Assembly: GCA_021789595.1 (NCBI GenBank)
Contig: JAJYJJ010000014.1
Location: 1-58,554 of the forward strand
Origin: Nitrospirota bacterium
GTDB lineage: Bacteria; Nitrospirota; Thermodesulfovibrionia; UBA6902; JAJYJJ01
DNA length: 58,554 nt
Reading direction: 5' to 3'
How positions within the stretch are numbered: the stretch's first letter is position 1; each line of letters opens with the position of its first letter. The notes beneath the pieces were generated by a model that was not told the origin of the DNA, searched no databases, and was given only the letters and a program-made list of their open reading frames with translations. This document shows positions 33,653-49,212 of this stretch, piece after piece. The position numbers and the translations under genes are program-made.

Positions 33653-34288
33653 ATGGCAATAAGACTTGTCATTGGTTGTTGCAGCTATCTTTTTAGTGAA
33701 GGCTTGAAGAGGCTACTTGAGGATGATAGTGAGGTAAATACCATCGGGATATTCACTGAAGGCATGGACCTGAAGGAGATAATAAAACTCAATCCGCATC
33801 TAATCTTGGCTGACTTCAACATCCTTCTTGGCCTTACTGCTGATTTTGCAATTAATAAAAAATTGAAGATCCTTCTCATTGATAACGGTGTTCCTCTCAT
33901 AAATGCACAGATACCAGAGCTGCTTTCAAGAGGGGTAGTGGGCATCCTTCCATCTGGTACCGATTCAATCCTTTTAAAAAAGGCAATAAAGGCTGTCTCT
34001 CTGGGGGAATTGTGGATAGACCGCAAGACCATAAAGAATATCCTCTCAAAGGAACCTTCTATGGCAATAGTAAATTTCACCAAACAGGAAGAAAAGATAG
34101 TGTCCCTGATATGTCAGGGATACAGGAACAAGGAGATTGCCCAAAAGCTTAATATCAGCGAGCAGACAGTGAAGTCCCATTGCAATAATATTTATAGGAA
34201 AGCAGGGGTATCGGACAGGCTGCAGCTTGCCCTTTACTCTTACAGGATATGGCCTGAGTGTATCAAAGGTGTTAGAACGAGGGTATAA
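33653..34288 (+). CDS. LuxR/CsgD-like regulator with degenerate receiver
   Basis: A 211-residue protein with an N-terminal receiver-like domain and a C-terminal LuxR helix-turn-helix (FTKQEEKIVSLICQGYRNKE, IAQKLNISEQTVKSHCNNIY). In the receiver part the acidic pair is replaced (VIGCCSY), although an aspartate remains in LILADFN, so phosphorylation by a kinase is doubtful, as for CsgD and VpsT. It lies just upstream of a PilZ gene and the curli genes, which suggests it controls matrix production. AAGGGGGATAGG provides the ribosome site. Confidence 0.88.
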   Translation: MAIRLVIGCCSYLFSEGLKRLLEDDSEVNTIGIFTEGMDLKEIIKLNPHLILADFNILLGLTADFAINKKLKILLIDNGVPLINAQIPELLSRGVVGILPSGTDSILLKKAIKAVSLGELWIDRKTIKNILSKEPSMAIVNFTKQEEKIVSLICQGYRNKEIAQKLNISEQTVKSHCNNIYRKAGVSDRLQLALYSYRIWPECIKGVRTRV

Positions 34289-34952: not shown

Positions 34953-35651
34953 ATTAAAATAAACATACTCATTGACATAGGCAGCCGTCTCATCGCAGAG
35001 GCCTTATACGAACTTCTGAAAAAACAGCAGAACGGGTATCAGATATTTGTGGCTGCTGACAGGAGGCCTGCCGATAGTTTCAAGCCTGATATTATCCTCG
35101 CGGATATTAACAACATAAATCAAAGACTATTTTCTCAATATCCTGAGGCAAAGGTTATCCTTGTGGATACAGGCCTAAAACAAGAGGACATCATCACTGC
35201 ACTGCTTTCTTATAAGATATGCGGCGTGCTTTCAGCCTGCACAGACCTTCGCCTGTTTAAAAAGGCGATAAAGGTTGTAAGTGAAGGGGAGATATGGATT
35301 GATAACACCACTGTTAAGTTGCTTTTGCAGAATGCAGGAGCCATGTCTAAGACAGGGAAAATAAACGGCATTACCGAGAGGGAAAAAGAGATCGTGGAGC
35401 ATGTATGTCAGGGCCTCGGGAACAAAGAGATTGCATCGAGGCTTTTTCTGAGTGAACAGACTGTCAAGGCACATCTGAACAGGATCTTCAGAAAGTTCAA
35501 TATCAGCAGCCGCTCTCAACTGGTATCCATAGCCATAAGATCACTTAAGCTAAACATAGTATTAGCCTTAGCTTATGATTTTTTCGCATCTATAGATTTT
35601 TATAATGTCAAGGTATTTCTCCACAATACCTTAGCAACCTTTGCCTCATAA
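34953..35651 (+). CDS. LuxR/CsgD-like regulator with degenerate receiver, non-canonical start
   Basis: About 232 residues. The helix-turn-helix (ITEREKEIVEHVCQGLGNKE, IASRLFLSEQTVKAHLNRIF) and pseudo-receiver (IILADINN) match the paralogue at 33653. The first ATG/GTG in frame (GTG 35049) would delete a third of the receiver; alignment with the paralogue (AIRLVIGCCSYLFSEGL against KINILIDIGSRLIAEAL) puts the start at ATT 34953 or ATA 34959, just after AGGGGGG. So a rare start codon is likely, or the gene has lost its start. The last 35 residues are unlike LuxR proteins and contain an 8-bp hairpin (35610-35632). It directly precedes csgE. Confidence 0.8.
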   Translation: MKINILIDIGSRLIAEALYELLKKQQNGYQIFVAADRRPADSFKPDIILADINNINQRLFSQYPEAKVILVDTGLKQEDIITALLSYKICGVLSACTDLRLFKKAIKVVSEGEIWIDNTTVKLLLQNAGAMSKTGKINGITEREKEIVEHVCQGLGNKEIASRLFLSEQTVKAHLNRIFRKFNISSRSQLVSIAIRSLKLNIVLALAYDFFASIDFYNVKVFLHNTLATFAS

Positions 35652-40628: not shown

Positions 40629-40693
40629 GCAGGGAACCTGTCTGTTGACGCAGTATGTATTTTATGGTAATCTTCTTCTAATTATTGGGCAAA

Positions 40694-42727
40694 ATGGCGA
40701 ATAAACTTTGCACAGATAGGGCAGAACATCTCCAGGAGCTTTTCCTGTCTGCGAACTGGAAAGGCTATTTCAAGACCATTTCTGATACCATTGGATTTAA
40801 TCTTAGTGTTTTCTCAGAGGACGGCAGCCTTATCTTTTCTACTGATGATTACTACCCCATTTGCAGGCCTTTACTGTCTTCCCCTGATTTCAGGGCTAAA
40901 TGCGATGCCTATTGCCGCTGTACCATGATGAGCGCCATTAGCAAGGGTAAGCCCGTAATCTACAAGTGTTATGCAAAGATGATGAGTTTTGCCCTGCCAG
41001 TTGAATACCTCAGCGAGAAGGGAATAATCCTGGGACAGGGGTCGTTTTCCAGCTATGAGGATTTTCTCGAGTTTATGGGTCGTTTAAGCCTCTTTAAGGT
41101 TAGAGATTTCTCTGTGACAGGCCCACTTAAATTTACCACTGCCGAAAATGCAAGGAATGCGTGTCGTCTTGTGGACAGCTCTATAAATCAGCTTTTAAAA
41201 AATAGTCAGGACGCCATTTTACTTAAACAAAAAATGGACAGCCTGAAAGATGTCCTGGGTATGTGGGGTGTTGCTGCTAAGGAGCAGCCAGAAACAGTTT
41301 ATAAATATATGATTGCCAACCTATTCACACTGCTTGACATAAAGCATGTTGCAATCCTTACCCTGGACAGACAGCGAGGCGTCTTTACAAGTCTTTACAG
41401 CGTGAAGGATGAGGGGCCGACAGAGGCATTCAGCATCAAAGCCGATGATATAATACTGCAGGCACTTCGAAAGGGCAAACCATTTGTTTCATCAATGGAT
41501 CCTTTTATGGCTGGCAGGATTGATTTCCTGAAAGACCTGGAGATCTTTTATTTCTTCCCTATCTTAACCAGGCCGAGATTAGAGAGTGTCCTGGGCATAT
41601 TTGGCAGCCCTCTTAAAGCGGGTGACATAAGTATTATCAATGCATTCTGCAAACAGACAGCAATATCCATAGAAAACCAGCGATTACACCATGAACTGTG
41701 TAGAAAACTTGATATATTTGCTGCCATCTCAGAGCTCACAAAGACCATAGCCCCTATCTTCGACTATAAGGCCCTGCTGCAGACAATCCTTGATAAGTCT
41801 GCTGATCTGCTTAAGGCGGAGCAGGGCTCCCTGATGCTGCTTGACCGCGAGACCGAGGTGCTGCTTCTTGAGGCAAAAAAAGGTATAGGCGATGGCATAA
41901 CAGAAAAACTCAGGATTAAAAAGGGCGAAGGCATAGCGGGGAAGGTGGCTGAATTTGGTGAGCCCTTCCTTGTAGAGGATGTAGAAAACGATCCGAGGAT
42001 TAAACAGAAAAACAGACTGCGGTATAAGACAAGATCATTTGTCAGCGTGCCTGTAAGGATAGAAGACCGCATTATCGGCGTGCTGAATCTATCGGATAAA
42101 ATAACAGGCGAGGCCTTTGATGAAGATGACCTGAAACTTATCCAGTCCTTTGCTACGCAGGCCGCTATTGTAATGGAAAGGAATTCGTTTTATACACAGA
42201 TAGAAGAGCTGAGAAGGTTATCCATAACTGACCCCCTCACAGGCCTGCTGAATCGCAGATACCTGCTCGACAGATTGGAAGAGGAGCTGTCGCGTTCTCA
42301 GAGGCATGGTCGGCTGTTCAGTCTTCTTATGCTGGATATAGATGGGTTTAAGGATTACAACGACACATTCGGCCATCCTATGGGTGACAGGGCACTTAAG
42401 GCTATATCAGAGGCCATATTGAACTCTGTGAGGTCTATAGATATAGTATCCCGTTACGGCGGCGATGAATTTATGGTAATCCTGCCAGAAACCGATAAGG
42501 CGTTGGCCGTCAGTATAGCAGAGAGATTGAAGAGTGATGTGGGAAAAACCGAACTGGCAAACAGCCTGACAGACGCAGGATTATCGCCGTCAAATCTTAC
42601 ACTCAGCATCGGCATAGCCTCCTATCCCGAGGATGGCAATACAACAGAGATGCTCATTGAGCATGTTGACAAGGCTCTTTATCTTGCGAAAAATAAAGGG
42701 AGGAACAGGATAGAGGTGTTTTCATAG
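40694..42727 (+). CDS. PocR-GAF-GAF-GGDEF diguanylate cyclase
   Basis: A 677-residue protein. An N-terminal PocR-type sensor domain (ISDTIGFNLSVFSEDGSLIF and a cysteine cluster CDAYCRCTM) is followed by two GAF domains (the second with the typical GEGIAGKVAEFGEPFLVEDV and SVPVRIEDRIIGVLNLSDK) and a GGDEF domain. The active site RYGGDEFMVILPE and an RxxD inhibitory site (RSID, 5 residues before GGDEF) are intact, so it should make c-di-GMP with product feedback. ATG 40694 is preferred over the TTG at 40685. One base separates it from the next gene. Confidence 0.93.
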   Translation: MANKLCTDRAEHLQELFLSANWKGYFKTISDTIGFNLSVFSEDGSLIFSTDDYYPICRPLLSSPDFRAKCDAYCRCTMMSAISKGKPVIYKCYAKMMSFALPVEYLSEKGIILGQGSFSSYEDFLEFMGRLSLFKVRDFSVTGPLKFTTAENARNACRLVDSSINQLLKNSQDAILLKQKMDSLKDVLGMWGVAAKEQPETVYKYMIANLFTLLDIKHVAILTLDRQRGVFTSLYSVKDEGPTEAFSIKADDIILQALRKGKPFVSSMDPFMAGRIDFLKDLEIFYFFPILTRPRLESVLGIFGSPLKAGDISIINAFCKQTAISIENQRLHHELCRKLDIFAAISELTKTIAPIFDYKALLQTILDKSADLLKAEQGSLMLLDRETEVLLLEAKKGIGDGITEKLRIKKGEGIAGKVAEFGEPFLVEDVENDPRIKQKNRLRYKTRSFVSVPVRIEDRIIGVLNLSDKITGEAFDEDDLKLIQSFATQAAIVMERNSFYTQIEELRRLSITDPLTGLLNRRYLLDRLEEELSRSQRHGRLFSLLMLDIDGFKDYNDTFGHPMGDRALKAISEAILNSVRSIDIVSRYGGDEFMVILPETDKALAVSIAERLKSDVGKTELANSLTDAGLSPSNLTLSIGIASYPEDGNTTEMLIEHVDKALYLAKNKGRNRIEVFS

Positions 42728-42728
42728 G

Positions 42729-44402
42729 ATGCCTTTCAGGACACTCCAGGAAAAGGATTTCTTCGGCAGAAAAGGAGAACTGACAGACCTATACCGCAGA
42801 TGCCTCGATACAGAAAAGGGCGCTGCACAGAGCATCTTTCTTTCAGGGCTCAGGGGGATTGGCAAGACAGAGCTGCTCAAACAGTTATTCAACCATCTGT
42901 TCTGGAGACAGGATAATGTAGTCCCTTTTTACTACTCTGTAAATAATGCCATACTATCTGCAGCGGAGTTTTCAAGAGACTATCTGACGCGCTACATCTG
43001 CCAGAGGCTTGCCTTTGAGAAGAAGGAGACATCCTTCGTATATCTTGATGGGCTGTCAATTGAAGGATTATATCGTGTTTTAGAGGAAAGAAAAGCCGCC
43101 TGGGCATTGGAGGCTCTTGACAGCTATAGCCAGAACCGCCATGAACCTGCAGATTCCCTGCGCATTGCATTGAACCTGCCGCATCAATCAGCCCTCTGTA
43201 CCGGAAAGCCTGTGGTGGTAATGATAGATGAATTTCAAAGACTGAAAAATCTGCATATCGGTGGAGCTACTGACCCGATGCTTGTCTGCCTCTTCGAGAT
43301 GCCCCTGTCTTCAAGAAATACACTGCATCTGATTACGGGCAATCAGGCTGAGATTCAGGAGATGCCTGTCTCTGCCAATCTTGCGAGGATATATGTGCAG
43401 CCGCTTCGATTAGAGGATGCTGCCTTGATGTTTTTGTCCCTGCTTGATGCATATGGAATCAATATTGATGCAGCGCCTCATCCTCTGCTTGACCATCTCG
43501 GTGGCAACCCATTTTACATAAGATGTACAGCAGGGGCAGCGGGCCTGAAGAAAGAGCCGGGTGAGAGGGATTTCTGGACAGTCTATATAGATGAGGTCAT
43601 GAAAGGAAACATCTACCTCTATTGGTCATCGGTCCTGAGAGACTCTTTCCCTGAACTGAGCATGAGGGAAAAGGCCATTGAGGTGATCAATACAATCTAT
43701 CATGCAGAGGAACCACTTACTTCTGACAGGATTCAGAGAGCAGTCTCTTTGAGCAGGGAACATACAGGAGTGATAGCAAATGTACTCTATCTCTCGGGTT
43801 TTGTAAGCGGTGAGTTCGGTGTTTTAAGGGCACCCGGAGACCTGGTTTTAATGGACTTTATAAACTGCCTCTATATGAGGGAGTTCTCAGGAAAATCCTA
43901 TAGCGATACCGGGGCAGTAATGCTTGAGCGAACATCAGGTGCAAAGCATAAATGCATCTCTTTTGAAATGACAATACCGATGATCAGAGAGGCAGAGCTT
44001 GTTGCAGCCCGGTGCCTCGAACAGGTAGGCAAGAATCTGCATTTAAACCAGGATGTCATCGGCCAACTGCAGATGGCTGTTATCGAGGCATGCATAAACG
44101 CTATGGAGCACAGCAAAGGGGAAGACGGGAAGATATATCTGAGTGTTGATCTTAAAGAAGACCGCCTGGAGATCTCTATTGAGAGCACCGGCAGGGAATT
44201 TGTGTCGCAAGAGGTAGGTGAGCCGTTTGTTGGCAGGGGCATCAGGGAAGATGATAGCAGGGGGTGGGGAGTAAAACTTATGAAGAACTTTACAGACTCG
44301 GTAAGATTTGAAAAGACAGAAAGAGGGACAAGGGTTGTTTTAGTAAAAAAACTTCAGGGGGCAGTGGAAGCTGACAAGAATGAGACAGCAGCCAATGAAT
44401 AA
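42729..44402 (+). CDS. Fused AAA/STAND-type ATPase and RsbW-like anti-sigma kinase
   Basis: A 557-residue protein. N-terminal ATPase of the archaeal-ATPase/ORC-like class: FFGRKGELTDL, Walker A GLRGIGKT (40-47), Walker B VVMIDEFQRLKN, sensor HLITGNQAEIQ, then a winged helix (AEEPLTSDRIQRAVSLSREH). The C-terminal 150 residues are a GHKL ATPase of the RsbW/SpoIIAB type: QMAVIEACINAMEHSKGE (N box) and RGWGVKLMKNFTDSV (G box). It overlaps a STAS-domain gene by 23 nt, the usual partner of RsbW proteins. Suggests a partner-switch controlled by an NTPase sensor. I do not recognise this fusion as a described family. Confidence 0.85.
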   Translation: MPFRTLQEKDFFGRKGELTDLYRRCLDTEKGAAQSIFLSGLRGIGKTELLKQLFNHLFWRQDNVVPFYYSVNNAILSAAEFSRDYLTRYICQRLAFEKKETSFVYLDGLSIEGLYRVLEERKAAWALEALDSYSQNRHEPADSLRIALNLPHQSALCTGKPVVVMIDEFQRLKNLHIGGATDPMLVCLFEMPLSSRNTLHLITGNQAEIQEMPVSANLARIYVQPLRLEDAALMFLSLLDAYGINIDAAPHPLLDHLGGNPFYIRCTAGAAGLKKEPGERDFWTVYIDEVMKGNIYLYWSSVLRDSFPELSMREKAIEVINTIYHAEEPLTSDRIQRAVSLSREHTGVIANVLYLSGFVSGEFGVLRAPGDLVLMDFINCLYMREFSGKSYSDTGAVMLERTSGAKHKCISFEMTIPMIREAELVAARCLEQVGKNLHLNQDVIGQLQMAVIEACINAMEHSKGEDGKIYLSVDLKEDRLEISIESTGREFVSQEVGEPFVGRGIREDDSRGWGVKLMKNFTDSVRFEKTERGTRVVLVKKLQGAVEADKNETAANE

Positions 44403-44748
44403 TTTTTCCATATCCTTAAAAGCCGCCAAAGATGTAGTTGTCATAATGCCCAGGGGATATGTCAATGACCTTGGCGCCGAGCGTCTGGAGCATACCTGCG
44501 AGCAGTATTTTGATAAGGGTTTGAAAAAGATTGTGATAAACTTTTCGGACATGCAGCATATAAACAGCATCGGGGCATCAGTCCTTACAGATATAGTGCA
44601 GAAGACTGCAGAACATAGGGGTTACCTCTGTTTTACAAATATGAAGAAGGTTCACCTTGATGTCTTTGAGATGTTAGGTATTACAAAACATGTTCGGGTA
44701 TTCAAGGAAGAGAAGGATGCCCTGAGTTTTCTGAAGGATATAGGCTGA
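44380..44748 (+). CDS. STAS-domain anti-sigma factor antagonist (RsbV/SpoIIAA-like)
   Basis: A 122-residue protein with a single STAS domain: VVIMPRGYVNDLGAERLEHT, then KKIVINFSDMQHINSIGASV, where the serine after Asn (NSIG) is in the place of the phosphorylated Ser of SpoIIAA (DSSG), and LCFTNMKKVHLDVFEMLGI. It overlaps the RsbW-like gene, so the two should bind each other, phosphorylation setting free or capturing the target. ATG 44395 is an alternative start. Confidence 0.9.
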   Translation: MRQQPMNNFSISLKAAKDVVVIMPRGYVNDLGAERLEHTCEQYFDKGLKKIVINFSDMQHINSIGASVLTDIVQKTAEHRGYLCFTNMKKVHLDVFEMLGITKHVRVFKEEKDALSFLKDIG

Positions 44749-44749
44749 G

Positions 44750-45979
44750 ATGAAGGGAAGATGGGACCTAAAACGTCTGGTTTTTAATCTCTCGTCTCTT
44801 GTTGAACTCGGGCAAGAGGTTACATCATCCAAGGGCATTAACGAGAAGATGAAGACCACCCTCCATGTTGTCACAGGCATGTTTTCTGTGCCAAGGGCTG
44901 CCCTGCTTGTATATAACTCAACTCGCAGCAGCCTTGAGGTCCTTACATACAAGGGCATCAGGGGGATGGATGGAACCAGAGTGTATATAAAGGCAAAACA
45001 TATAAAGACCTTTAAAAAGAATGAGCCATGCAGCATAAATGAGATAAAGAACAACTCCTTTTACGAAGATAACCATGATGCATTCAAAAGACTTCAAACA
45101 AAGACATTTATCCCGCTGTTTGCAAAGGATGAATTTGTAGGCGCTATCAGCCTTGGCAACAGGCTGTCCAGAAAATCATACCTCCAGAGCGAAAGGGATG
45201 CGCTCAAGGTGATAGCAAATCAGATGTCAATAGCGCTGCATAATTCAAACCTGTTCAAGAAGCTTACAAACAAGGTTACTGAAAACAAAAGGCTGTATGA
45301 GAATATGAGGCGCATCTACCATGACACTATCCAGGCATTTGCTGCTGCTATTGACGCCAAGGATGTTTACACAAAAAATCACTCATACAGGGTGGCAAGG
45401 TATGCAGTGGCTATTGCAAGGGAGCTCGGATGGGGAGAAAAGGATGTCGAGGGCATATATGTCGCAGGCCTCCTGCACGATATAGGCAAGATAATACTTG
45501 ACAGGGGAGTAATAAACAAGGGCGAAGAACTTACCATAATGGAGATAACCGAGATAAGGAAACACCCGCAGATCTCATACGACATACTCTCCAAGATCAA
45601 GTTTCCGTGGAAGGATGTGGTGGATTTTGTAAGGCATCACCATGAGAGGGTTGATGGCAAAGGCTATCCTGATTCACTTATGGAGGCAGACCTCAGCGAT
45701 GGCGTAAAGATTCTTGCACTTGCCGATGCCTTTGACGCTATGACAACCGACAGGCCATACAGAAGAAAACTCCATCTCCTGGAGGCGCTCAGGGAAGTGA
45801 GAAAGTGCCTCGGAACGCAGTTTGACGGCAGGATATCGAGGGTTTTTTTCAGGGTGCTGCAGAAGGAGATTAAAGGGGAGGTCAGAGAGGCTCAGATCAT
45901 ACCCCATTTGGATAAGGACTTTGACCCTACGATTATAACCACGCTGCTTGAGGGTATTACTGCCGAACTTTCAGCATAA
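44750..45979 (+). CDS. GAF-HD-GYP c-di-GMP phosphodiesterase
   Basis: A 409-residue protein. An N-terminal GAF domain (TTLHVVTGMFSVPRAALLVY, FIPLFAKDEFVGAISLGNRL) and a coiled linker lead to an HD-GYP domain with H..HD..H..HH ligands: HSYRVARYAVAIARELGWG, LLHDIGKIILD, RHHHERVDGKGYPDSL and ALADAFDAMTTDRPYR. It should degrade c-di-GMP. It starts one base after the STAS stop, closing a four-gene operon with a cyclase at the other end. Confidence 0.93.
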   Translation: MKGRWDLKRLVFNLSSLVELGQEVTSSKGINEKMKTTLHVVTGMFSVPRAALLVYNSTRSSLEVLTYKGIRGMDGTRVYIKAKHIKTFKKNEPCSINEIKNNSFYEDNHDAFKRLQTKTFIPLFAKDEFVGAISLGNRLSRKSYLQSERDALKVIANQMSIALHNSNLFKKLTNKVTENKRLYENMRRIYHDTIQAFAAAIDAKDVYTKNHSYRVARYAVAIARELGWGEKDVEGIYVAGLLHDIGKIILDRGVINKGEELTIMEITEIRKHPQISYDILSKIKFPWKDVVDFVRHHHERVDGKGYPDSLMEADLSDGVKILALADAFDAMTTDRPYRRKLHLLEALREVRKCLGTQFDGRISRVFFRVLQKEIKGEVREAQIIPHLDKDFDPTIITTLLEGITAELSA

Positions 45980-46165: not shown

Positions 46166-47569
46166 TTAAAGCATAAATTCTGACAGATTAATATGGTACA
46201 GATTTGGATCCAGGGTCTTTACGATATTCCTCTTGTAGTTTCCTGTCTCCTCGTGTCTTTCTGTGAGGTCAACTGTTGGCCCCTTCACGCGGTTACCTTT
46301 ACTGTCAACAACTACCATCACCCTTGGCCTGCCTATAAATTCAGGGTTGGGATTTGTCTCAAAGATAAGACCGAGCTCCTTTGTATCAAGCATGACAAGT
46401 GTGCCTACTGGATATACTCCTACCATATTTATAAAGAACTTCAACAGCAGAGGGTCTATCTCGTCATTTGACCTTTCTATCAGAATGCTCAGTGCCTTGT
46501 CAGGTGCCAGTGGTACCCTTGAATATATCCTTGATGAGGTCATGGCGTCATACTGGTCAGCAATGGTAACGATCCTTGTAAAGAGGTCAAGTTCCAATCT
46601 CTCCCTTAGCTTCGGATAGCCCGATAGGTTGTTGTGGAGATGATGCTCGAATGCTACTATTACTGACCTTAATGCCGATTCATCAAAACCCTTTAACTTC
46701 AGCAGTGCCCTTACGCCCCAGAACGGGTGTTTCTTCATTATCTCCCATTCCTCATCCGTAAAGTTTGTTGGCTTATTCAGTATCTCAGGTGGAATCTCAA
46801 CCTTGCCTATGTCATGGAACAGGGCTGCAAGCCCCAGGTCTGTAAGGGACTTCCTGTTAAGCCCTATCCTCTGGCCAAGGGCAATGGACAGTATGCTGAC
46901 ATTTACCGAATGGTTGTATGTGTATTCGTCATATTCCTTTATCGCTGTCATACCTATGAGCAGGGATTCTTCTTCGAGGATCTGGTCGATGATGTTCTCT
47001 ATTACCCTCTTTGCCCTCTTGATGCCTGTCTTTTCCCCTGCCTTTATCTTTGTTATTATCCCTTTTGTATAGGAGACGGCATTAAAATATGTCCTCTTCA
47101 CTGCCCTTCGTGGATCATAGTCCTCGGGCTCTTCCTTTATCTTTTTTAGTTTGTCTATGCTTATCCTGTTCAGGCCTGATAGTTTTTCCAGCATGGTATC
47201 AAATGGATTTTCCGAAAAGCCTGCAGCCCATAACGCCCTTAAAAACACCTTTACATCGTCTATCTTCAACGGCTCGTAGATGATTATGCTTCCGACTCCC
47301 CGTTTCCTGAACTCCCTTATCAGGCAGTCAAAATTGAGTATATGTTCGAGGCTGTATCTTATCCTGTTGTCATTCATGTAGAAGAACTCGCCAATGAGCT
47401 CTATGGTCAGTCTGCCCTCTGCCTTGATGATGGGGTTGATGATAGCCAGAAATTTCTCTATGGCGTTTATAACAGCGATGTTATTAGGGTCGTGTATCTG
47501 TGAGGTCTTTACAGTGACCGCAAGCTGGTTTATTATATCCTTTGCCTCTTGATAGATCTGCTCTGGCAT
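46166..47569 (-). CDS. HD-GYP domain protein with novel N-terminal domain
   Basis: A 467-residue protein. The C-terminal half is an HD-GYP domain: NHSVNVSILSIALGQRIGLN, ALFHDIGKVEIPPEIL, EHHLHNNLSGYPKL and IVTIADQYDAMTSSRIYSRV, so metal ligands are present and c-di-GMP hydrolysis is plausible. The first 120 residues (EFFYMNDNRIR, EFRKRGVGSIIIYEPLKIDD) resemble the N-terminus of the HEAT protein encoded just upstream. The start overlaps the stop of that gene by one base (TAATG). A C-terminal beta region (VGTLVMLDTKELGLIFETNP) follows the HD-GYP. Confidence 0.9.
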   Translation of the reverse strand: MPEQIYQEAKDIINQLAVTVKTSQIHDPNNIAVINAIEKFLAIINPIIKAEGRLTIELIGEFFYMNDNRIRYSLEHILNFDCLIREFRKRGVGSIIIYEPLKIDDVKVFLRALWAAGFSENPFDTMLEKLSGLNRISIDKLKKIKEEPEDYDPRRAVKRTYFNAVSYTKGIITKIKAGEKTGIKRAKRVIENIIDQILEEESLLIGMTAIKEYDEYTYNHSVNVSILSIALGQRIGLNRKSLTDLGLAALFHDIGKVEIPPEILNKPTNFTDEEWEIMKKHPFWGVRALLKLKGFDESALRSVIVAFEHHLHNNLSGYPKLRERLELDLFTRIVTIADQYDAMTSSRIYSRVPLAPDKALSILIERSNDEIDPLLLKFFINMVGVYPVGTLVMLDTKELGLIFETNPNPEFIGRPRVMVVVDSKGNRVKGPTVDLTERHEETGNYKRNIVKTLDPNLYHINLSEFML

Positions 47570-49212
47570 TACATCAGCCTCTTGAGTGCTTCTATGGACA
47601 TATCCCTCAGGAGCCTGTTACCTGAGTTCTTTGTTTTTTCAAGTATGGGGATGGCATCCTTACAGCCCATGAGTCCTAAGGCATAGGCTGCGCAGGCCCT
47701 TAGCTCTGAGTTCTTTGACCTGCCAAAAAAGAATCTTTTCTTCTTAAGTGTGTTCGTAAGGAAGTCCGCAACCTCACTGTCAGCCCATGAGGCGAGAACC
47801 TCATAAAACTCCTTCTTCTCGTCAAATCCCCTGTTGAGGAATTCGTCACTGGTTATAACATCCATCAATATTCGTTTGGCTGCATCTGTTTTTATATTCC
47901 CTATAACCTTTACGGCTGCAGTTCTCACAGAGGGTTCGCTGTCAAAGAGTGCTGTCTTTAGATACGGCAGTCCCTGCGAGCCTGCCAGACTGCCAAGGGC
48001 CTTTATTGTCTCTTTCCTAACCCTCTGGTCAGGGTGTGTAATGACCTTGCTCAGATATTCTATGGAGGTCTTATCGCTTATCCTTCCAAGGATATATATG
48101 GTGTTCCTTACTACATACCATCTCTGGTCCTGTAGCCCGCGGGCAATGGCCCTGGTATCATACCTGCCTACATGGCAGAGCGCCTCTATGGCAAGCCTCC
48201 TTCCCCTTATGCTCCTTAGTTCGCCAAGGAGCCTCATCAGTGAAGGTATGGCGAACTTATCGAGGTGCTTGATGCAGGCCATAAAGTCTTTTTCATCTAA
48301 GACCACATCGCTGTCTATGATCTCGCCCACAGCGTTTATTACTGTGTCGCTTCCTGCAAAGGATAGAACTCTTTTTAATGGCATTGCCCAGTCATCGGAT
48401 AGATGCCCCTTTTCTATCATATCCCTGACCTTATCGAGCATGTAAGATGCCTTTAGAAAATCAGCCTTTTCTATGCAGTATTTAAAGGCATCTGCCAGGA
48501 AGCCGCATATCTCGGAGAAGACAGGGGGTTCTGCTGCCTGATAAAGCACCTCGAAAAGCACGGCTATAGCCCTGTCTATCTTGCTGCGGTATTCTTTTTC
48601 TATCTCCCTCGCAAGTGCCTGCAGGTCGCTGTCATTCAGTGATGCAACAGCCACCGATGTCTTTTCCGCCTCGGCAGTTAGTCCATCTCTGTATGCCTTC
48701 AGTATGTCGTCCTCTGTTGCAGATTTTTCCCTTACCTGCTTTATCATAGATGCCTCATAGTCCTCATCTTCGATAAGGAAGCTTTCATCCACAATATATT
48801 TGACATGCTCAAAGTCTTTTTCCCAGAGCAGAGTAACCACATCGTCATCTATGATCTCACGATCAAAATCAGAGGATAGTATCTTCAGAAAATCAATCAC
48901 CTCATCCTTTGTCAGACCCTTGAGAAATGTAATCTCCCTTACCCCATCCTTAAAGAAGAACAGCGCAAGGTTGTCTTCCTTGTCCTGATTGAAATAGACC
49001 TGTTCATTTGAATACACCAGTTCATTCTGTCTTATCCTCAGACGGAGATCATCGCCCATCGAGAAAAAGTCAGTAAATCTGCTATAGACATCATCCAGGG
49101 TCTTTGCATAGATAGGGTTGTTCGGCAGGTACATCCGTATAGTCTTTTTTGCCTTAAGGATTACCTGAATGATGTCCTTCACAGATTTTATTTCATCGGA
49201 GACTATGTCCAT
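47569..49212 (-). CDS. HEAT-repeat protein
   Basis: A 547-residue cytoplasmic protein. The first 120 residues form a domain shared with the HD-GYP partner (RIRQNELVYSNEQVYFN, LFFFKDGVREITFLKGLTKD). A charged helical middle leads to several HEAT repeats (RRLAIEALCHVGRYDTRAIA, VRKETIKALGSLAGSQGLPY, VRTAAVKVIGNIKTDAAKRI). HEAT arrays serve as protein-binding scaffolds. The ATG follows a TATCTT -10 by 8 nt with no ribosome site, so the mRNA may be leaderless. No enzymatic motif seen. Confidence 0.85.
   Translation of the reverse strand: MDIVSDEIKSVKDIIQVILKAKKTIRMYLPNNPIYAKTLDDVYSRFTDFFSMGDDLRLRIRQNELVYSNEQVYFNQDKEDNLALFFFKDGVREITFLKGLTKDEVIDFLKILSSDFDREIIDDDVVTLLWEKDFEHVKYIVDESFLIEDEDYEASMIKQVREKSATEDDILKAYRDGLTAEAEKTSVAVASLNDSDLQALAREIEKEYRSKIDRAIAVLFEVLYQAAEPPVFSEICGFLADAFKYCIEKADFLKASYMLDKVRDMIEKGHLSDDWAMPLKRVLSFAGSDTVINAVGEIIDSDVVLDEKDFMACIKHLDKFAIPSLMRLLGELRSIRGRRLAIEALCHVGRYDTRAIARGLQDQRWYVVRNTIYILGRISDKTSIEYLSKVITHPDQRVRKETIKALGSLAGSQGLPYLKTALFDSEPSVRTAAVKVIGNIKTDAAKRILMDVITSDEFLNRGFDEKKEFYEVLASWADSEVADFLTNTLKKKRFFFGRSKNSELRACAAYALGLMGCKDAIPILEKTKNSGNRLLRDMSIEALKRLM

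Follow-up and report, generated by a model that had tools for sequence, protein, structure and literature searches.

A putative NTPase-driven partner switch encoded with cyclic di-GMP enzymes in Nitrospirota

Cyclase-linked partner switches are known. In the SiaABCD system of Pseudomonas aeruginosa, according to the cited part of its description, the kinase SiaB and the phosphatase SiaA act on SiaC, and unphosphorylated SiaC activates the cyclase SiaD (PMC8457831). In the HptB/HsbA-HsbD pathway of the same species, the anti-anti-sigma (STAS) protein HsbA is described in the passages cited as interacting with the cyclase HsbD (PMC5085249), and BgrSTUWV-BgrR of Sinorhizobium meliloti is mentioned as a partner switch on a diguanylate cyclase via the STAS protein BgrV (cited in PMC8457831). 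The module described here is located in a Nitrospirota contig (JAJYJJ010000014.1, assembly GCA_021789595.1), of which the whole stretch of 58,554 nucleotides that was analysed is referred to as the window. Its central protein, designated ATPW, is a fusion of an NTPase, a winged helix and an RsbW-type GHKL domain. No description of an ATPase-GHKL protein with a STAS protein and c-di-GMP enzymes was found in titles and abstracts of the open-licence literature, Nitrospirae included.

Gene order and domain composition

The module was composed of four genes on the forward strand, in the order PocR-GAF-GGDEF cyclase, ATPW, STAS protein and GAF-HD-GYP protein, with spacings of 1, -8 and 1 nt. The diguanylate cyclase (40685..42727, forward strand) contained PocR (E 1.9e-10), GAF and GGDEF domains, a GGDEF motif with an RxxD I-site pattern and, in PocR, four cysteines (residues 60, 73, 77 and 95). 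In the alignment viewed, these cysteines were kept in nearly all cyclase rows covering the domain, and their conservation suggests a putative metal or Fe-S site. A CsgH/CsgC-like gene ends 56 nt upstream of the cyclase gene, which itself ends 1 nt before ATPW (42729..44402, forward strand). In ATPW, AAA_16/ATPase_2 matched residues ~11-204 and HATPase_c_2 residues 426-540 (E 1.4e-16); the latter GHKL domain (44004..44348, forward strand) shows the N-box EACINAMEH and the G2 box SRGWG. The gene for the STAS antagonist-like protein (44395..44748, forward strand; STAS domain E 3.4e-13) has a mechanical ORF start at 44380; since most relatives begin at VNNFS, its start is likely the ATG at 44395 (MNNFS), giving an overlap of 8 nt with ATPW. 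It ends 1 nt before the gene of the GAF-HD-GYP phosphodiesterase (44750..45979, forward strand; GAF, HD_5 E 2.8e-32), which carries the motifs HDIGK and HHERVDGKGYP. Coordinates and domain matches thus confirmed the original prediction of a fused ATPase-RsbW gene overlapping a STAS gene, with cyclase and HD-GYP genes at 1-nt gaps.

Just downstream, on the opposite strand (window positions 46166-49212), the genes of a further HD-GYP-type protein and of a HEAT-repeat protein meet end to end. The curli genes are preceded by two ORFs (33653-34288 and 35049-35651) that resembled LuxR-type regulators, as judged by eye.

The NTPase arm of ATPW showed a Walker A motif (GLRGIGKT), a Walker B motif (VVMIDE), the sequence GGNPFY and a winged helix; Walker A/B, winged helix, GxP-type motif and fold match all agree with a STAND/archaeal ATPase_2 protein. 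In the AlphaFold model (mean pLDDT 84.5), the N-terminal ~400 residues matched archaeal ATPase_2 proteins (PABY2304, SSO1545) and NLR-type STAND NTPases, and the C-terminal ~130 residues (GHKL, residues ~410-541) showed the RsbW/SpoIIAB fold. A role in anti-phage defence was considered and rejected: PADLOC gave no match to ATPW or the STAS protein, and only for the HD protein did it return matches, weak ones to Cas3/Cas10.

Distribution and gene neighbourhoods

Matches to ATPW (E <= 0.001) were obtained in 41 of 61 genomes, including that of the window, a few of them short or partial. Full-length ATPW was also present in families f8, f9, f11, f17 and f25 of a 396-genome sample of the phylum; f25 lies outside the class of the window, and ATPW is thus found in at least two classes of Nitrospirota. 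Neighbourhoods were compared at 46 loci and 23 further loci, some of them duplicate records. The widespread unit was ATPW-STAS-GAF-HD-GYP, in the same order in f1, f6, f8, f9, f11, f17 and f25. Across the recurring units the STAS start overlaps the ATPW stop; the mechanical starts abut in one locus (L151), and in a few rows extended ORF starts make the overlap look larger. Because the three genes recur in this order with this overlap, the layout is not due to chance. Followed across genomes, the architecture of ATPase/GHKL protein, STAS protein and c-di-GMP enzymes proved to be conserved well beyond the genome of the window. The HHE..DG.GYP motif was found in 28/28 rows of GAF-HD-GYP orthologues. 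The serine of NSIG in the STAS protein, residue 58 when numbered from the start at 44395, aligned with SpoIIAA Ser58, and NS/NT-x-G occupied this position in 29 of 30 rows of STAS orthologues (some duplicate records; L137 ambiguous).

A cyclase gene was located upstream of ATPW in f1, f4, f6, some f8, f25, f2, f3 and f5, and no adjacent cyclase was present in f9, f11 and f17 (11 ATPW rows with STAS). The cyclase is therefore a lineage-specific partner of the ATPW unit. On the other hand, a clade of 34 rows (f2, f3, f5) has lost STAS and HD-GYP and consists of cyclase-ATPW only, the cyclase being upstream wherever the contig reaches. Genome-wide searches of f2, f3 and f5 found no STAS orthologue, apart from a weak match of 52 residues in G033; at E <= 1e-60, a GAF-HD-GYP orthologue was likewise not found. 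In the midpoint-rooted tree, the triads with and without a cyclase were placed on opposite sides of the root. The predicted bracketing by a cyclase and a phosphodiesterase therefore holds in the window but not as a fixed operon, since the presence of the cyclase varies independently of that of the STAS/HD-GYP pair. GAF-HD-GYP did not adjoin two STAS-positive loci, L143 and L147: in the genome of the former (G254) another contig begins with a partial GAF-HD-GYP match, and in that of the latter (G161), where ATPW-STAS is present, the orthologue was not found.

At L033 and L034 the called cyclase ORF beside ATPW was shortened (113 and 508 aa, compared with ~670 in neighbours). ATPW of L032, a record titled Nitrospinota, nested among the f8 rows with an end branch of 0.022, and this record is probably a mislabelled metagenome-assembled genome. 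Candidate relatives in KSB1, SAR324 and Acidobacteriota were rejected, since only the ATPase/winged-helix part matched and the GHKL, STAS and GAF-HD-GYP profiles gave no hit there.

Regarding the output, curli or matrix synthesis had been proposed. Among 30 genomes searched, CsgF was detected in that of the window only; of the 29 in which it was not found, 28 carry ATPW and the remaining one (G061) is not known to. Curli control was consequently rejected as a conserved role, and the module appears to serve signalling in general and not the regulation of curli.

GHKL domain and its erosion

The position of the G1 Asp, which contacts adenine, was set by alignment with RsbW and SpoIIAB. The N-box Glu/Asn/His and the G2 Arg-Gly were invariant in 27/27 STAS-linked ATPWs, and in all 27 the G1 Asp was replaced, by Ser in 25 and by Thr in two; in the window the residue is Ser486 (IESTG). 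Another RsbW of the same genome (contig C16) reads IEDSG at G1, and this speaks for a genuine substitution and against an error of alignment. ATPW scored below the NCBIfam equivalog cut-offs for RsbW (43.7 of 145 bits) and SpoIIAB (38.6 of 135 bits); it is GHKL/RsbW-like by fold and outside both equivalogs. No PP2C/SpoIIE phosphatase was found in the operon or nearby, the only SpoIIE match of the genome being in the mla cluster of C16. With the G1 Asp missing and no PP2C in the operon, ordinary kinase activity and a standard kinase/phosphatase cycle appear doubtful, and nucleotide-gated binding would be at least as likely as classical kinase activity for the GHKL arm. The proposed pairing of an RsbW-like and a STAS protein with c-di-GMP enzymes thus stands as a partner-switch-like unit but not as a standard phosphorylation cycle. 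The Ser-for-Asp G1 box makes the choice between kinase and binding switch directly testable.

The C16 genes (G000:C16:59785-61085; L097:5048-9734) constitute a second, canonical-looking partner switch of GAF-SpoIIE, RsbW (G1 IEDSG) and STAS. They directly precede mlaE-mlaF-mlaD-like genes, in the same order in L100 (G017) and L101 (G004), and phospho-control of lipid transport is possible.

Among the 32 complete STAS-less ATPWs, the lid/G2 was kept in none and the N-box Asn/His pair in a single one (L050). At equal ATPase divergence, the ratio of GHKL to ATPase identity was 1.18-1.43 with STAS and 0.89-0.93 without; by pairwise identities, GHKL is the more conserved half of STAS-linked ATPWs and the less conserved half of the others. 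Even in the model of a STAS-less member the GHKL fold is retained, and the PDB entries that it matched include RsbW (6m37). On the tree of the ATPase part (L049 and L136 left out), STAS presence and GHKL state each change once, so their co-loss counts as one event. A second erosion event is probable in G096 (L136), from another family, in which no STAS match was found genome-wide and the GHKL is partly eroded (N-box His to Tyr; RRWG); the ATPW gene is there followed by only 179 nt of contig. With a single change on the tree, and with partial erosion and a nearby contig end in the second case, the association of GHKL and STAS has little independent replication. This natural series with and without STAS constitutes a ready experiment on the role of GHKL after partner loss.

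Proposed mechanism and comparison with known systems

The reading that we tentatively favour, while giving it slightly less than an even chance, is an NTPase-driven partner switch that acts on c-di-GMP enzymes and not on a sigma factor; both its contacts and their direction are what we infer. ATPW would be the hub, with a STAND-like ATPase/winged-helix arm and an RsbW-type GHKL arm. The former would change state with nucleotide or another ligand and, where the cyclase gene is present, may work with the PocR-GAF-GGDEF cyclase, gene adjacency alone being no proof of contact. The GHKL arm would bind and release the STAS protein. Free STAS would most likely dock on GAF-HD-GYP and set its phosphodiesterase activity; HD-GYP is preferred over the cyclase as target because STAS tracks GAF-HD-GYP, and in G161, where this orthologue was not found, the target may differ. 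One signal could in this way shift c-di-GMP synthesis and breakdown together. It is possible, with considerable doubt, that a STAND-type NTPase cycle has replaced the kinase/phosphatase cycle, the Asp-less GHKL holding and releasing STAS by a nucleotide-gated conformation and so coupling the cyclase arm to the HD-GYP arm.

Alternatively, STAS could bind the GGDEF protein and set cyclase activity, with ATPW as a kinase-like binder that removes STAS. The activation of SiaD by unphosphorylated SiaC and the binding of HsbD by HsbA are precedents, and the cyclase gene is in the same run as STAS. However, the two are dissociable, as shown by the 11 STAS-containing rows of f9, f11 and f17, the STAS-less clade keeps its cyclase, and STAS tracks GAF-HD-GYP instead; this alternative seems unlikely. 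Even less probable is that the module's STAS protein is phosphorylated and dephosphorylated by the C16 system: that cluster has the only SpoIIE match of the genome, and its RsbW retains the G1 Asp, but it lies on a different contig.

A canonical anti-sigma system, in which ATPW would bind and inhibit a sigma factor and inactivate STAS by phosphorylation, with transcription (of curli or other genes) as output, would fit the resemblance of GHKL to RsbW/SpoIIAB in sequence and model and the STAS serine at the Ser58 position. Against it, the genome yielded only two sigma70-r3 proteins, which were 521 and 475 residues long in the loci read and whose length and sequence resembled those of RpoD; this search, outside which ECF types (without region 3) fall, found no SigB/SigF-like factor. 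Together with the family-wide absence of the G1 Asp, the operon without a phosphatase and the restriction of CsgF to the window's genome, these data make sigma-factor control, originally suggested as a possibility, very doubtful. Equally improbable is a DNA- or RNA-level regulator, in which an ORC-like ATPase and winged helix would bind nucleic acid under GHKL/STAS gating. In its fold ATPW does resemble Orc1/Cdc6 proteins whose structures were determined on DNA (2qby, 2v1u), but it matched non-ORC archaeal ATPase_2 proteins best and NLR STAND proteins next, and the winged helices of STAND proteins are usually structural.

If the NTPase-driven switch on c-di-GMP enzymes is true, partner switching would reach beyond sigma factors and single cyclases to c-di-GMP synthesis and breakdown, coordinated via one NTPase hub, in Nitrospirota. 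As to the Bacillus pairs RsbW-RsbV and SpoIIAB-SpoIIAA (6m36, 1th8), the GHKL domain aligned with RsbW and SpoIIAB and the STAS protein with SpoIIAA; the Bacillus proteins differ in being stand-alone kinases with the G1 Asp, a sigma-factor target and dedicated phosphatases. The module resembles SiaABCD in that there a STAS-type partner (SiaC) sets a co-encoded diguanylate cyclase (SiaD), whereas the cited part of the SiaABCD description includes neither an NTPase-kinase fusion nor an HD-GYP protein (PMC8457831), and the module of the window lacks a phosphatase and the G1 Asp. HsbA-HsbD differs in its HptB-pathway input, with no NTPase-fused GHKL protein in the passages cited (PMC5085249), and neither an NTPase-GHKL fusion nor HD-GYP appears in the brief citing description of BgrSTUWV-BgrR (PMC8457831). 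The module of the window would be a variant of these cyclase-linked partner switches.
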